64,000 bases of DNA from Tistrella mobilis (GTDB lineage Bacteria; Pseudomonadota; Alphaproteobacteria; Tistrellales; Tistrellaceae). Below the pieces are notes generated by a model that was given only the letters and a program-made list of their open reading frames with translations, was not told where the DNA came from and searched no databases. This document shows positions 24,409 to 56,164 of this stretch, one piece after another (position 1 is the stretch's first letter; each line of letters starts with the position of its first letter). The position numbers were made by a program, and so were the translations under genes. Location of the stretch: assembly GCF_039634785.1 (NCBI RefSeq), contig NZ_JBBIAB010000007.1:1-64000 (forward strand). The letters are read 5' to 3'.

Positions 24409-25212
24409 TCACATATAGCCTTCGGCGCGCAGGCGCTCGAAGGCATCTTCGGATTCCTTGTCCTGGGCACGGCCGGCGCGCTCGGAGGTGCGGGTGGTCT
24501 CAAGCTCCGCCACGATCTCGGCCACGGTCGATGCCGTGCTGCGGATCGGCAGGGTGCAGGGCGCGCAGCCGAGCGAGCGGTAGCGCAGCCCTTCCTGATT
24601 GGCGAAATAGAGGTTCACAACCGGGATCTCCTCGCGCTGGATGTAGCGCCAGATGTCGACCTCGGTCCAGTGCAGCAGCGGGTGGATGCGCACCGAGGTG
24701 CCGGCCGGGAATTCGGTCTTGAACTGGTCCCAGAACTCCGGCGGCTGATCCTTGACGTTCCAGGCATTGTCCTGACCGCGCGGGCTGAACACACGCTCCT
24801 TCGCGCGCGTGCCCTCTTCGTCGCGGCGGATGCCGGCGATGACGCCGGTGAAGCCGTGGGTGTCGAGCAGCGACTTCAGCCCCTCGGTCTTCAGCGCCGA
24901 GCAGCAGACCACGCGGCCGCGGGTGTGGTTCATACCCGCATCCAGCGCCGCCCGGTTCTGGCCGACGATCAGGTTCAGCCCCCATTCCCGCGCCATCCGG
25001 TCGCGGAATTCGATCATCTCGGGGATCTTGTACGAGGTGTCGACGTGGAGCACGGGGAAAGGCACATGGCCGAAGAAGGCCTTGCGGGCCAGCCAGACCA
25101 TGACATTGCTGTCCTTGCCGATCGACCACAGCATGGCGAGCTTGTCGATGCGGTTGAACGCCTCGCGCAGGATGTAGATGCTCTGCGCCTCAAGACGGTC
25201 GAGATGATCCAT
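24409..25212 (-). CDS. cysD: Sulfate adenylyltransferase subunit 2
   Basis: This 267-residue protein is the catalytic ATP sulfurylase subunit. The PP-loop motif [18 protein letters not shown], the LHVDTSYK segment and the C-terminal [13 protein letters not shown] and [13 protein letters not shown] are diagnostic. It forms a complex with the GTPase part of CysN/C encoded 19 bp downstream and converts sulfate and ATP to APS. No cysH or cysI is in the window. The AT-rich region upstream (25354-25400) probably holds its promoter. Confidence 0.95.
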
Positions 25213-51362: not shown

Positions 51363-51680
51363 ATGTCCGCACCGCATCGGGCTTGTCTGCACCCGGCGTC
51401 GGTGTGGGCGTTCATATAACGCAGCCCGAAAGGCCGTGCAAGCCCGGAAATGCACGCCCGTGACGGTTCCGTGTCGCCGCCCCTGGAATGCGCTGCCGCC
51501 GCAAGGTGTTGCCCATGCGACGCGGACATGACCGCCCTGTGCCCTGGGGGCCGGTCGCGGGGACCGAATGGCATGACATGGGGGGCGGAATGCCGTATTC
51601 ATGTGGGCCTGGATCGATGCGGCACCCGGATGGGACCGGGCAGCGGGCATCGGCGGCAGATCGGGGGACAAGACCGACCG
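51363..51680. other. Interval between tRNA-Val and the N-formylglutamate amidohydrolase gene
   Basis: These 318 bp hold the tRNA promoter near the left side. The rest shows no conserved reading frame on either strand and no clear promoter for the following gene. Confidence 0.5.
51413..51441 (-). promoter_or_regulatory. Sigma-70 promoter of tRNA-Val
   Basis: On the minus strand TTGCAC (51436-51441) and TATATG (51413-51418) are 17 bp apart, about 50 bp before the tRNA 5' end. Confidence 0.6.
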
Positions 51681-52637
51681 ATGGCCGATTTGGGCTTCGA
51701 TACGGAAGACCGCCTGGAGATGGCGGGGGCAGCGACGACCGGGACCGGGTTCGACGACTGGGTCGATCCGGCGGTCGAGGTGCTGCGCCCGGCCGAGCTC
51801 CGGCTGCCCTTCGTCTTCGCCTCGCCCCATTCCGGGAACTGCTATCCCGACGGCTTCCGGGCGTCGTCGGCGCTCGATCCGCTGACGCTGCGCAATTCCG
51901 AAGACGCGTTCGTCGACCGGCTGTGGGCCGCCGCCCCGGCGCTGGGGGCGCCGCTGATCCGCGCGCGCTTCCCCAGGGCCTATGTCGACGTCAACCGCGA
52001 GCCCTATGAGATCGACCCGCAGATGTTCGCCGATGCGGTACCGTCTTTCGTCAACGCCACGTCCCGGCGGGTGATGGGCGGTCTCGGCACCATCGCGCGC
52101 GTCGTGACCAACGGCCTGGAGATCTATGGCCGCAAGCTGTTCTGGGCCGAGGCGGAGCTGCGCATCGCCCGCTACTACTTCCCCTATCATGCGGCACTGA
52201 AAGCGACGATCGACGAGGTGCGCAGCCGGTTCGGCGGCGTGTTGCTGGTCGATTGCCACTCCATGCCTTCGGTGGGCGGGCCGATGGATCACGATCCGGG
52301 CGACCGGCGGGTGGATTTCGTGCTGGGCGACCGTTTCGGTGCCGCCTGCGCCCCCCGGGTGATCGATGCCGCCCAGCAGGTGCTGGAGGGGATGGGCTAT
52401 AACGTCGCCCGCAACCGGCCCTATGCCGGCGGCCATGTGACCGAACATTACGGCCGCCCGGTGACCGGCGTGCATGCCCTGCAGATCGAGATCAACCGCG
52501 CCCTCTATATGGATGAAAGCGTGGTGGAGCCGCTGCCGGAACTGGCGCGGGTCGCCGCCGACCTCACCCTGCTGATCGAGACATTGGGTCGCGACAGCGC
52601 CCTGCTCGCCGCCCTCGGCGTGGAACGACGAGGCTGA
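51681..52637 (+). CDS. N-formylglutamate amidohydrolase family protein
   Basis: This 318-residue protein has PFVFASPHSGNCYPDGF, VNREPYEIDP, VDCHSMPSVGGP and HALQIEINRALYMDE, matching the HutG/N-formylglutamate deformylase family. It may hydrolyse formylglutamate in histidine degradation, though no other hut gene is present, so another N-acyl amino acid substrate is possible. The ATG at 51681 removes a long, unconserved N-terminal extension. Confidence 0.83.
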   Translation: MADLGFDTEDRLEMAGAATTGTGFDDWVDPAVEVLRPAELRLPFVFASPHSGNCYPDGFRASSALDPLTLRNSEDAFVDRLWAAAPALGAPLIRARFPRAYVDVNREPYEIDPQMFADAVPSFVNATSRRVMGGLGTIARVVTNGLEIYGRKLFWAEAELRIARYYFPYHAALKATIDEVRSRFGGVLLVDCHSMPSVGGPMDHDPGDRRVDFVLGDRFGAACAPRVIDAAQQVLEGMGYNVARNRPYAGGHVTEHYGRPVTGVHALQIEINRALYMDESVVEPLPELARVAADLTLLIETLGRDSALLAALGVERRG

Positions 52638-52773
52638 CCGCCGCGGTTCGCCGGCCTCTGCCGCCGTCCCGGCACCCCGGCATCCCTTGCGGATGCCCGC
52701 TCATGGGTCCGACCGTCGCCCGCGGTCGGCTCCGCTGCCAGCCTCGACGCATTTCGAAGGGCGCCCCGATCAG

Positions 52774-53349
52774 ATGGCCGTGCTCACCATGCCCAAACCC
52801 GATCGTCATCCGCTTCCCCAACCCGGGGTCGTCGTCCGCGACGCCACCGAGGCCGACATGGCCCAGGTGCATGCGATCTACAGCTATTACGTCTCCAACA
52901 CCACGGTCAGCTTCGAACTGGCGGCACCGGATCTGAACGAGATGCGGGCCCGGCGGCTGGCGGCGCTGGATCGCGGCCTGCCCTTTCTGGTCGCGGTCGA
53001 AGCGGGCGAGGTGAAGGCCTTCGCCTATGCCTCGCCCTTCCGGATGCGTGCCGCCTATCGTTTCACGGTCGAGAACTCGGTCTATGTCGGCCGGGGCCAG
53101 ACCGGGCGGGGGCTGGGGCGGGCGGTGCTGGCCGAACTGGTCCGGCGCTGCACGGCGGCGGGTTTCCGGCAGATGGTGGCGGTGATCGGCCATCCGGGCA
53201 ATCCGGCCTCTCTGGCCCTGCACCAGGGGCTGGGCTTCACCCATGCGGGTGAATTCAAGGCGATCGGCTACAAGTTCGGCCGCTGGATCGACGCGATCAT
53301 GCTTCAGCGCAGCCTGGGCGAAGGCTCTTCCACCGCACCGGAAGATTGA
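52774..53349 (+). CDS. GNAT N-acetyltransferase, phosphinothricin acetyltransferase-like
   Basis: This 191-residue protein has the GNAT fold with VVRDATEADMAQVHAIYSYY at the N-terminus, the acetyl-CoA-binding R-Q-T-G-R-G-L-G pattern (GRGQTGRGLGRAVLAELV) and the C-terminal GFTHAGEFKAIGYKFGRW, as in the PAT/MnaT (YncA) group. It probably acetylates an amino acid or a toxic analogue. The start at 52774 precedes the conserved N-terminus. Confidence 0.83.
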   Translation: MAVLTMPKPDRHPLPQPGVVVRDATEADMAQVHAIYSYYVSNTTVSFELAAPDLNEMRARRLAALDRGLPFLVAVEAGEVKAFAYASPFRMRAAYRFTVENSVYVGRGQTGRGLGRAVLAELVRRCTAAGFRQMVAVIGHPGNPASLALHQGLGFTHAGEFKAIGYKFGRWIDAIMLQRSLGEGSSTAPED

Positions 53350-53387: not shown

Positions 53388-53471
53388 TTTACCGGCTTGA
53401 AAAAGCCGCGGGACGCACGCAGACTCGTCCTCAAACGCCCCCTTCAACGGTGCGACGAGGACTTGACGACC

Positions 53472-54320
53472 ATGACCCAGGGTTATCGCGACCACGCGGC
53501 AGAGATCCGGGACGACTTCACCAGGGATCAGCATTGGGAGAAGCTGACCCAGGAGGAGCACGCGATCTGGCGCTTTCTGTTCGAACGCCAGGCCCGGATT
53601 CTGCGCGACCGGGCCGTTCCGGCCTTCATCGACGGGCTTTCGGGCCTGGGCATCGCGGCGGACGGCGTGCCGGAATTCGAGCGCCTCTCCGACGTTCTGG
53701 AAAAGACCACCGGCTGGCGGATCGTCTGCGTGCCGGGGCTGGTACCGGACGACGTGTTTTTCCGCCACCTGTCGGAACGCCGCTTCCCCTCCACCAGCTT
53801 CATCCGCACCCGCGAGCAACTGGACTATCTGCAGGAACCCGACGTCTTCCACGACATCTACGGCCATGTGCCGCTGCTGATGAACCCGGTTTTTGCCGAT
53901 TACATGCAGGCCTATGGCCAGGCCGGGCTCAGGGCCGATGCCCGTCACTGCCTGCACAATCTGGCCCGGCTCTACTGGTACACGGTGGAGTTCGGCCTGA
54001 TCGCCACGGATGACGGCCTGCGCATCTACGGATCGGGCATCGCCTCGTCGAAGGGGGAATCGATCTATGCGCTGGAGGATCGGCGCCCCAACCGGCTGGG
54101 CTTCGACCTGCGGCGGGTGATGCGCACCCGCTATCGCATCGATGATTTTCAGGAGACCTATTTCGTCATCCGGTCCTTCGAAGAGCTGTTCGAAGAGACC
54201 GCGCAGGACTTCCAGCCGATCTATGACGAAATGGCCAGCGCCGGCGACTATGCCCCTGGCGACGTCCTGCCCGAGGACCGGTTGTACCAGCCCAACCCAC
54301 CGGGCGCCGAAGCCGCCTGA
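53472..54320 (+). CDS. phhA: Phenylalanine 4-monooxygenase
   Basis: This 282-residue aromatic amino acid hydroxylase has FPSTSFIRTREQLDYLQEPDVF-type sequence, here written as FIRTREQLDYLQEPD then VFHDIYGHVPLL (two iron-ligand His), and YWYTVEFGLI (third ligand Glu). It converts phenylalanine to tyrosine using tetrahydropterin and oxygen. The start at 53472 removes 25 unconserved residues. No pterin carbinolamine dehydratase gene (phhB) is adjacent. A strong terminator follows. Confidence 0.93.
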   Translation: MTQGYRDHAAEIRDDFTRDQHWEKLTQEEHAIWRFLFERQARILRDRAVPAFIDGLSGLGIAADGVPEFERLSDVLEKTTGWRIVCVPGLVPDDVFFRHLSERRFPSTSFIRTREQLDYLQEPDVFHDIYGHVPLLMNPVFADYMQAYGQAGLRADARHCLHNLARLYWYTVEFGLIATDDGLRIYGSGIASSKGESIYALEDRRPNRLGFDLRRVMRTRYRIDDFQETYFVIRSFEELFEETAQDFQPIYDEMASAGDYAPGDVLPEDRLYQPNPPGAEAA

Positions 54321-54345
54321 CCACCGGACCATCGGCCGCTTTTCA

Positions 54346-54374
54346 CCCCGCCATCCCCTGGATGGCGGGGTTTT
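54346..54374 (+). terminator. Rho-independent terminator after phhA
   Basis: A perfect 9-bp stem (54346-54354 CCCCGCCAT with 54362-54370) is followed by TTTT. It separates phhA from the small-RNA array. Confidence 0.87.
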
Positions 54375-54438
54375 GCATAGGCATATTTCGCATATGCAGC
54401 ACAAGCCCGGACACCTGGCCCCAGCGGGAAGTCCGGAC

Positions 54439-54538
54439 AAAAAAAGGCCGTACCAGCAATCTGATACGGCCCAAGTCTAGGGAGGAAACGCCCAAGAAGA
54501 TGGGCAGCATCACCAGACGCACAGCGTCTTATGACGCA
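54439..54538 (-). ncRNA. Small RNA copy A of a three-copy array
   Basis: On the minus strand a transcript of about 100 nt would start near 54538, run through a 5' hairpin (GCGTC, loop ATAA, GACGC), a small hairpin GCCCA/TGGGC, the conserved core GTTTCCTCCCTAGACTT (54473-54489), and a terminator stem ending in seven T residues (54439-54445). The core is complementary to Shine-Dalgarno sequences. The design recalls the CcsR/cuckoo, alpha-r14 and AbcR types of alphaproteobacterial sRNA, but family membership is unverified. No open frame is plausible here. Confidence 0.75.
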
Positions 54539-54544
54539 CTGCAA

Positions 54545-54573
54545 TATATACGCTGCGACGCAGCAGCGGTCAA
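54545..54573 (-). promoter_or_regulatory. Sigma-70 promoter of small RNA copy A
   Basis: On the minus strand TTGACC (54568-54573) and TATATA (54545-54550) are exactly 17 bp apart, a near-consensus promoter. The spacer ends GCAGCG, as in copy B. Confidence 0.72.
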
Positions 54574-54666
54574 GCGGGAATTGTAATCGGTTTCACACGC
54601 GCAAAACGGGCCTTCGCATTTGCGAAATCACAGGCCCGCCAGCGCTTCGCGACGCACCATCAGGAC

Positions 54667-54765
54667 AAAAAAAAGGCCGTACCAGCAATCGGTACGGCCC
54701 AAAGTCTAGGGAGGAAACGCCCAAAAACTGGGCTGCAACAGCGGCGCCGCCAAGCGCCCGTTACA
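54667..54765 (-). ncRNA. Small RNA copy B of a three-copy array
   Basis: On the minus strand a transcript of about 99 nt would start near 54765. Its 5' part differs from copy A, but it keeps the GCCCA/TGGGC hairpin, the identical core (54702-54718) and a terminator stem with perfect GGCCGTACC arms, ending in eight T residues (54667-54674). Conservation is restricted to the 3' half, which suggests the core and terminator are under selection. Confidence 0.75.
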
Positions 54766-54771
54766 GGTATG

Positions 54772-54800
54772 AAGATACGCTGCGGCGCACAAACGGTCAA
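54772..54800 (-). promoter_or_regulatory. Sigma-70 promoter of small RNA copy B
   Basis: On the minus strand TTGACC (54795-54800) and TATCTT (54772-54777) are exactly 17 bp apart. Confidence 0.68.
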
Positions 54801-54818
54801 GGGGCTTGTCGGGCGGAA

Positions 54819-54843
54819 TGGACAAAAAAAGCTAAGGAGGTCC
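54819..54843 (-). repeat. Possible remnant of a fourth small-RNA copy
   Basis: Between copies B and C the plus-strand text GGACAAAAAAAGC followed by AAGGAGGTCC repeats the outer edge of the other terminators (GGACAAAAAAA) next to an AGGAGG resembling the core, with the hairpin missing. It may be a decayed copy or chance. Confidence 0.35.
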
Positions 54844-54954
54844 AGGAATTCCGCGGGGTTATGCCGGTGCCGCATGCCCTGCATGCCAACCGGGCATCTG
54901 TGCAGGTGCAGCACGAACATCTTCCGGCCTGATGCGCGTCAGACGCCCGGGCGC

Positions 54955-55058
54955 AAAAAAAAGGCCGCGCCAGCAGACTGACACGGCCCTAAGTCTAGGG
55001 AGGAAACGCCCAAGGATCTGGGCAGCGGCCGCGAACGCCTGAGCGTTCACCTGCCGCG
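54955..55058 (-). ncRNA. Small RNA copy C of a three-copy array
   Basis: On the minus strand a transcript of about 104 nt would start near 55058. It has its own 5' hairpin (GAACGC, loop TCAG, GCGTTC), the GCCCA/TGGGC hairpin, the identical core (54991-55007), and a terminator stem followed by eight T residues (54955-54962). The stem sequence has diverged most but pairing is largely kept. Confidence 0.75.
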
Positions 55059-55064
55059 CTGCAA

Positions 55065-55093
55065 CATATAGAGGTTGCCCGCGAATGAGGCAA
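55065..55093 (-). promoter_or_regulatory. Sigma-70 promoter of small RNA copy C
   Basis: On the minus strand TTGCCT (55088-55093) and TATATG (55065-55070) are exactly 17 bp apart. The bases after the -10 (TTGCAG) match those of copy A. Confidence 0.68.
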
Positions 55094-55228
55094 GAGAATT
55101 TCGTGCCTCGATATTGAGCAGCAGCTCTGCGACCACCTTTCCCGACGGTTGGCACGGGATTTGAAAGAGTGGAGCAGAACCGGCAGCCCCGCTGCAGCCC
55201 CCTCCAACGCCATCCGGATCCGCCGATC

Positions 55229-56164
55229 ATGTCCGAGCCCCCCCGCCCGACCAGCCCAGAACGCCCCCGCCATGCCGCGCGCCGCGGCGCGATGCTGACC
55301 GCCATCCTTATGGCCGGACTGGCGGTTTTCCTGGGCTCCGCCCCCGCCCGGGCGGGTGACGACCCCGACGGAAAGGCCCGGGACTGGATGCTCTGCGACC
55401 AGGCCATCTCGGCCGCGGAACGTCGCCACGGCCTGCCCGACGGGCTTCTGGCGGCCATCGCCCTGGCGGAATCGGGCCGCTGGAGCAAGGAGCGCTCGGC
55501 AAGAACTGCCTGGCCCTGGACCATCTATGCCGAGGGCCGCGGCCGCTACCTGCCGAGCAAGGCGGCTGCCCTGGCGGAAATCCGCGGCCTGCGCGCCAAA
55601 GGGGTCCGGAACATCGACATCGGCTGCATGCAGGTGAACTTCCACTTTCATGGCGAGGAATTCGACGACATCACCCAGATGATCGATCCCGCCTATAATG
55701 CCGACTACGCCGCCCGCTTCCTGAAAGATCTGCAGGGCGAAACCGCGACCTGGACCGAGGCGGTCGGCTTCTATCACAGCCGCACGCCCTCCAACTCCAA
55801 GCCCTATCGCAGCCGGGTGCTGGATTTCTGGCTGGAGCGCAACGGCCATGCCCCGGCCGGCTCGGCTTCGGGCAAGCGCACGCCTGCGATCACGACCGCC
55901 GCCGAGGATGCCGCACAGCGCCAGGCACCGGCGGCTGACGAGACCCAGCTTGCCGCCGCCGACATGGCGCCCGAGACTGCCGGCGCTGACGACGCCCCCG
56001 GCGCCATCGCCCCCCGCCCCGCCGCCACTCGGGTGCATATGCCCTCCCCCGCCCGCGGCGCCACCCTCGGCCCCGTCACCAGTTCGACCCGCGGGGTCTA
56101 TCGGGCGCCCAGCGGTCAGGTTCTGCGCATGATGCGCCCCAGCGGGGCGATCGGCCTGAACTGA
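55229..56164 (+). CDS. Lytic transglycosylase-domain protein
   Basis: This 311-residue protein has a hydrophobic export segment (residues about 14-34, ending APARAG) and an SLT-like catalytic domain: ERRHGLPDGLLAAIALAESG with the catalytic Glu, RNIDIGCMQVNFHFHGEEF and YNADYAARFLKDL. It would cleave peptidoglycan in the periplasm. The C-terminal 100 residues are alanine/proline-rich and low-complexity. The ATG at 55229 gives a typical signal peptide; 20 extra residues are possible upstream. Confidence 0.82.
   Translation: MSEPPRPTSPERPRHAARRGAMLTAILMAGLAVFLGSAPARAGDDPDGKARDWMLCDQAISAAERRHGLPDGLLAAIALAESGRWSKERSARTAWPWTIYAEGRGRYLPSKAAALAEIRGLRAKGVRNIDIGCMQVNFHFHGEEFDDITQMIDPAYNADYAARFLKDLQGETATWTEAVGFYHSRTPSNSKPYRSRVLDFWLERNGHAPAGSASGKRTPAITTAAEDAAQRQAPAADETQLAAADMAPETAGADDAPGAIAPRPAATRVHMPSPARGATLGPVTSSTRGVYRAPSGQVLRMMRPSGAIGLN

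Follow-up and report, generated by a model that had tools for sequence, protein, structure and literature searches.

A tandem array of three alpha-r8 (MmgR/suhB/Sis) small RNA units near an N-formylglutamate amidohydrolase gene in Tistrella mobilis

The first description of alpha-r8, from 2005, was of a small noncoding RNA that carries a promoter and a terminator of its own, frequently occurs in several copies per genome and has an unstructured conserved part (PMC1273637). The family is defined by an unpaired 10-mer, UUUCCUCCCU, lying downstream of a weak hairpin (PMC12559287). In Caulobacter, SisA binds Hfq, represses many mRNAs via the 10-mer and is sponged by the RNA CrfA, and the four Sis siblings differ in both promoter and expression (PMC12559287). 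In Sinorhizobium, MmgR limits polyhydroxybutyrate storage (PMC7143759). In most species a single alpha-r8 copy is kept beside a gene for N-formylglutamate amidohydrolase (FGase), and adjacent copies have been stated for some genera (PMC12559287).

Here we describe three alpha-r8 (MmgR/suhB/Sis) members in Tistrella, lying in tandem in a 64,000-nucleotide stretch of T. mobilis DNA, hereafter the window. The family is a known and experimentally studied one; the kind of RNA is already known, and the one mildly unusual point is that three units stand in tandem, each under a different promoter. A small RNA in Tistrella was not found mentioned in the literature searched.

Family identity and anatomy of the three units

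Searching the window against Rfam 15 with cmscan identified all three units as members of RF00519 (suhB/MmgR, alpha-r8), with scores above the gathering cut-off of 41 bits (Table 1). Since the E-values of the units against Rfam over the whole window were 6e-10 to 6e-12, chance is excluded. A preliminary description had likened the units to the CcsR/cuckoo, alpha-r14 and AbcR RNAs of alphaproteobacteria and had proposed a cmscan comparison with Rfam. The kind of RNA was thus rightly recognised, and the comparison did yield a known family, though a different one from those named. Judged by sequence, the units are genuine small RNA genes of the trans-acting type.

Table 1. Positions of the small RNA units, their parts and the neighbouring genes in the window
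Feature	Position	Strand	Details
sRNA unit A	54439-54573	-	-35 TTGACC 54573-54568; 17-bp spacer; -10 TATATA 54550-54545
Unit A, start and terminator T-run	start ~54538 (inferred); T-run end 54439	-	seven T
Unit A, core	54473-54489	-	GTTTCCTCCCTAGACTT; unpaired, invariant; contains family 10-mer UUUCCUCCCU
Unit A, Rfam suhB match	54432-54512	-	61.1 bits
sRNA unit B	54667-54800	-	-35 TTGACC 54800-54795; 17-bp spacer; -10 TATCTT 54777-54772
Unit B, start and terminator T-run	start ~54765 (inferred); T-run 54674-54667	-	eight T
Unit B, core	54702-54718	-	
Unit B, Rfam suhB match	54660-54740	-	68.1 bits
sRNA unit C	54955-55093	-	-35 TTGCCT 55093-55088; 17-bp spacer; -10 TATATG 55070-55065
Unit C, start and terminator T-run	start ~55058 (inferred); T-run 54962-54955	-	eight T
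Unit C, core	54991-55007	-	
Unit C, Rfam suhB match	54948-55030	-	60.4 bits
FGase (PF05013)	51450-52637	+	true start may be further in
GNAT acetyltransferase	52687-53349	+	near FGase and sRNA in several other genomes as well
Phenylalanine 4-monooxygenase	53397-54320	+	beside array in Tistrella only, among loci examined
Lytic transglycosylase-like protein (SLT)	55169-56164	+	near sRNA in 17 other loci

Direct reading of the minus strand between 54439 and 55093 revealed units A, B and C exactly where the preliminary description had placed them; all are about 100 nt long, the predicted transcripts measuring 100, 99 and 104 nt, respectively. Each has its own -35 and -10 boxes, 17 bp apart in all three as that description had it, and a terminator ending in a U-tail. 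RNA folding gave the three transcripts a common layout: a 5' hairpin that is specific to the unit comes first, then the GCCCA/TGGGC hairpin, the unpaired core and finally the terminator. The claimed hairpins and the terminators with 7-8 T were thus seen by reading and folding in every unit. The 17-nt core, GTTTCCTCCCTAGACTT, is identical in units A, B and C, as expected of the invariant anti-Shine-Dalgarno core that had been claimed. Within it the family 10-mer is unpaired and downstream of a weak hairpin in 3/3 units, and CCUCCCU was at least 95% unpaired in all three predicted folds. The position of the C/U-rich motif is the one point of anatomy on which the earlier reading failed: it had been compared to loops, and the folds place the core in a single-stranded linker.

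Scans for sequence signals gave a similar picture. A terminator scan recovered the terminators of all three units, among five terminator-like sites in total against 1.8 expected. In a strict promoter scan, B alone of the three units scored; A and C were missed because the scan demands a T at position 6 of the -10 box, which TATATA and TATATG lack. Both of these promoters are weak-to-fair matches to the consensus.

Elsewhere in the genome we noted a second C/U-rich small RNA candidate, at G000:C22:20560-20740 (L004:1401-1571, + strand), with orthologues in L075 and L076. It contains several hairpins that carry UCUCCC in or close to their loops, has a terminator capped by UUCG and is conserved in the genus. 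Its best Rfam score was to SorX (40.0 bits, cut-off 46.6), followed by suhB (34.5 bits, cut-off 41). It was therefore rejected as a fourth suhB copy, being below threshold, a different multi-hairpin RNA and closer in score to SorX; possibly it belongs to an undescribed or distant family.

Locus, conservation and origin of the array

A distance of 1.8 kb separates the array from the FGase gene, with the GNAT and phenylalanine 4-monooxygenase genes in between and the lytic transglycosylase gene flanking it on the opposite side. In its FGase protein region the window shares 98% identity with T. mobilis KA081020-065. A position beside FGase is usual though not obligatory for alpha-r8. Of 53 loci with RF00519 matches in other alphaproteobacterial genomes, 35 have FGase at most 1.5 kb from the sRNA, and in the same range 17 have a transglycosylase gene and 9 a GNAT gene. 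Since the FGase neighbourhood is common in the family, the Tistrella array represents the ancestral locus in expanded form.

Two other features of the window were noted. On the + strand at 54340-54372, a hairpin formed by CCCCGCCATC and GGATGGCGGGG is followed by TTTT and shows compensatory changes between Tistrella genomes; it is probably the terminator of the phenylalanine hydroxylase gene. ARAGORN also detected a selenocysteine tRNA (anticodon TCA) at 24855-24949, + strand, which was not listed by the Rfam scan at the gathering threshold.

Selection on the RNA is apparent across the family. The preliminary description had proposed covariation in relatives as a check, and the terminator stem does covary: across 37 aligned family members, 92% of cells were paired, with 58 two-sided changes against 16 expected from shuffling, a value reached in 0/500 shuffles. 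The small hairpin kept all 4 of its pairs in 47 of the 53 sequences, against a mean of 31.7 and a maximum of 40 in shuffles, and had a few compensatory changes; the 10-mer was exact in 46/50 related loci.

Within the genus, the triple array was present in all three Tistrella genomes compared. Between the window and the genome of another Tistrella species (G001), the units were identical at 397/408 positions, versus 339/442 for the spacers and flanks (Fisher p = 9e-21). Promoters and 5' hairpins are different between the units and hardly different between Tistrella species. The statement that the copies differ freely outside core and terminator thus holds between paralogues and fails across the genus, where each unit is nearly invariant. 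Because this is so while the spacers diverge, the copies have been maintained separately. Additionally, the terminators of the units have a TGCTGG loop side in common, and the array therefore probably arose by tandem duplication. The probable history is of a tandem duplication that predates the genus; the unit starts then diverged, after which each unit was conserved separately. The preliminary description had read the pattern as selection on an RNA rather than a recent duplication; the selection is borne out, and the duplication, though older than Tistrella, does underlie the array.

The spacer between B and C contains, on the minus strand at 54820-54850, a 12-nt stretch, CTTTTTTTGTCC, which matches the unit A tail exactly and adjoins CCTCCTTAG. 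This could be the remnant of a fourth unit. As a decayed unit it makes a weak candidate, since the identity score of CTTTTTTTGTCC was equalled in 12/500 shuffles.

No other close alpha-r8 tandem was present among the listed RF00519 matches (E to ~1.4e-9) from 387 alphaproteobacterial genomes. An apparent second tandem pair, in genome G374, was actually ar15/AbcR.

Proposed function and candidate targets

Taken together, we consider it very probable that the three units are paralogous alpha-r8 RNAs derived from an old tandem duplication at the ancestral locus and that, by analogy, they would act in Hfq-dependent anti-Shine-Dalgarno repression. As for the Caulobacter SisA-D RNAs, the likely function would be Hfq-assisted repression in which the core pairs with Shine-Dalgarno sequences. 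On the model of SisA-D and MmgR, each unit would be transcribed by itself, from a sigma-70-type promoter of its own, and its U-tail would bind Hfq, the gene for which is present in the Tistrella genome. The open core would then pair with Shine-Dalgarno regions rich in G and A on many mRNAs and prevent the translation of genes for transport and for carbon and nitrogen metabolism. With three copies under unlike promoters, different conditions could raise the same seed, and the total dose would be raised too.

A tentative and less likely idea is that the siblings have become functionally separate, each with its own promoter input and with a conserved 5' hairpin that has a second, unit-specific function, which could be a seed of its own, stability or a sponge site. 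If so, the array would be a compact three-input switch on one regulon. It is unlikely that the array instead acts mainly through dosage or a sponge partnership, with three seeds buffering, or buffered by, a CrfA-like decoy rather than serving separate regulons. CrfA does sponge all four Sis RNAs in Caulobacter (PMC12559287); however, no CrfA-like counterpart was recognised in Tistrella, where the matches to the core complement with up to 3 mismatches were the array itself and a few Shine-Dalgarno-like sites before genes, with no decoy-like long complement (the search was for long complements, and a decoy with a shorter match would escape it). The unlike promoters of the units also argue against it. 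Slightly more improbable still is the idea that one copy is active and the other two are relics of duplication, as might be suggested by the imperfect -10 boxes of A and C and by S. meliloti NfeR1, of whose six copies one is well expressed (PMC7143759). Against this, core and terminator are retained in each of the three units, and all three copies, promoter and 5' hairpin included, have stayed nearly invariant across Tistrella while the spacers diverged.

Returning to repression of Shine-Dalgarno regions by the shared core, we looked for possible targets. Outside the array, two Tistrella genomes have an extended core complement, TCCTAGGGAGGAAAC, at the Shine-Dalgarno sequence of a gene for a DctP-type TRAP transporter; the version of this site in T. 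mobilis is weaker. A second DctP gene and an alanine dehydrogenase gene have near-perfect complements at their Shine-Dalgarno sequences, which are conserved in G001. In G000 the two DctP genes are at C7:171969 and C7:8013 and the alanine dehydrogenase gene is at C15:88545. The candidate targets are therefore two TRAP-transporter binding proteins and alanine dehydrogenase, and would fit a role in nutrient uptake and in carbon and nitrogen metabolism. However, since the core matches ordinary Shine-Dalgarno sequences, the sites are not specific. By predicted duplex energy, 30 DctP genes showed no significant advantage over 30 control genes for binding proteins (p = 0.12), and so the predicted targets are leads only. 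TRAP-transporter genes as a preferred target class were rejected on the same grounds, there being two conserved sites and no overall enrichment. As to control patterns for the target sites, a shuffled-flank version gave 0 matches and its reverse several; this disparity makes pattern counts too dependent on composition in these genomes to serve as a test of target enrichment. The G000 genome is rich in transporters, with 39 TRAP-transporter DctP and 33 Peripla_BP_6 matches above cut-off.

Comparison with known systems

The suggestion that the units are AbcR (alpha-r15), alpha-r14/NfeR1 or CcsR/cuckoo RNAs, all of which carry C/U-rich anti-Shine-Dalgarno motifs, can hardly be credited and is ruled out by both cmscan and anatomy. 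AbcR1/AbcR2 (RF02345) come closest, being likewise a tandem pair of anti-Shine-Dalgarno RNAs in one intergenic region (PMC7143759) and belonging to the same Rfam clan as suhB; unlike the Tistrella units, which have one core in a linker, they have two such motifs. In cmscan suhB was the best match of the clan, whereas ar15 (gathering cut-off 40 bits), ar14 and CcsR gave no match at gathering score on the three units, even though the same search named a true ar15 tandem pair elsewhere, at 119-127 bits. RNAs of the alpha-r14 and cuckoo type repeat their motif in hairpin loops (PMC3927594, PMC7143759), as with CCUCCUCCC in the loops of SmelA075 and SmelA099 (PMC3927594). The folds of the Tistrella units lack this loop and have instead a single TTTCCTCCCT in the unpaired linker.

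The nearest likenesses are within alpha-r8 itself, and the array extends known biology to Tistrella while leaving the picture of the family unchanged. With MmgR of S. meliloti the units share the covariance-model match, UUUCCUCCCU in an open stretch, a small GCCC/GGGC hairpin before the core and a U-tailed terminator. However, MmgR is the sole alpha-r8 copy in S. meliloti (PMC12559287) and is 77 nt long (PMC7143759), whereas Tistrella has three copies in tandem, which are about 100 nt in length and have individual 5' hairpins. Like SisA-D of Caulobacter crescentus, the siblings of the array share one identical core while their promoters differ, and SisA too lies by an FGase gene. The Sis genes occupy four separate places in the genome; in Tistrella, by contrast, three siblings of a widely conserved, little-characterised family lie within one 660-bp stretch, which makes the array a convenient place to study why one regulatory seed is retained in several copies by bacteria.
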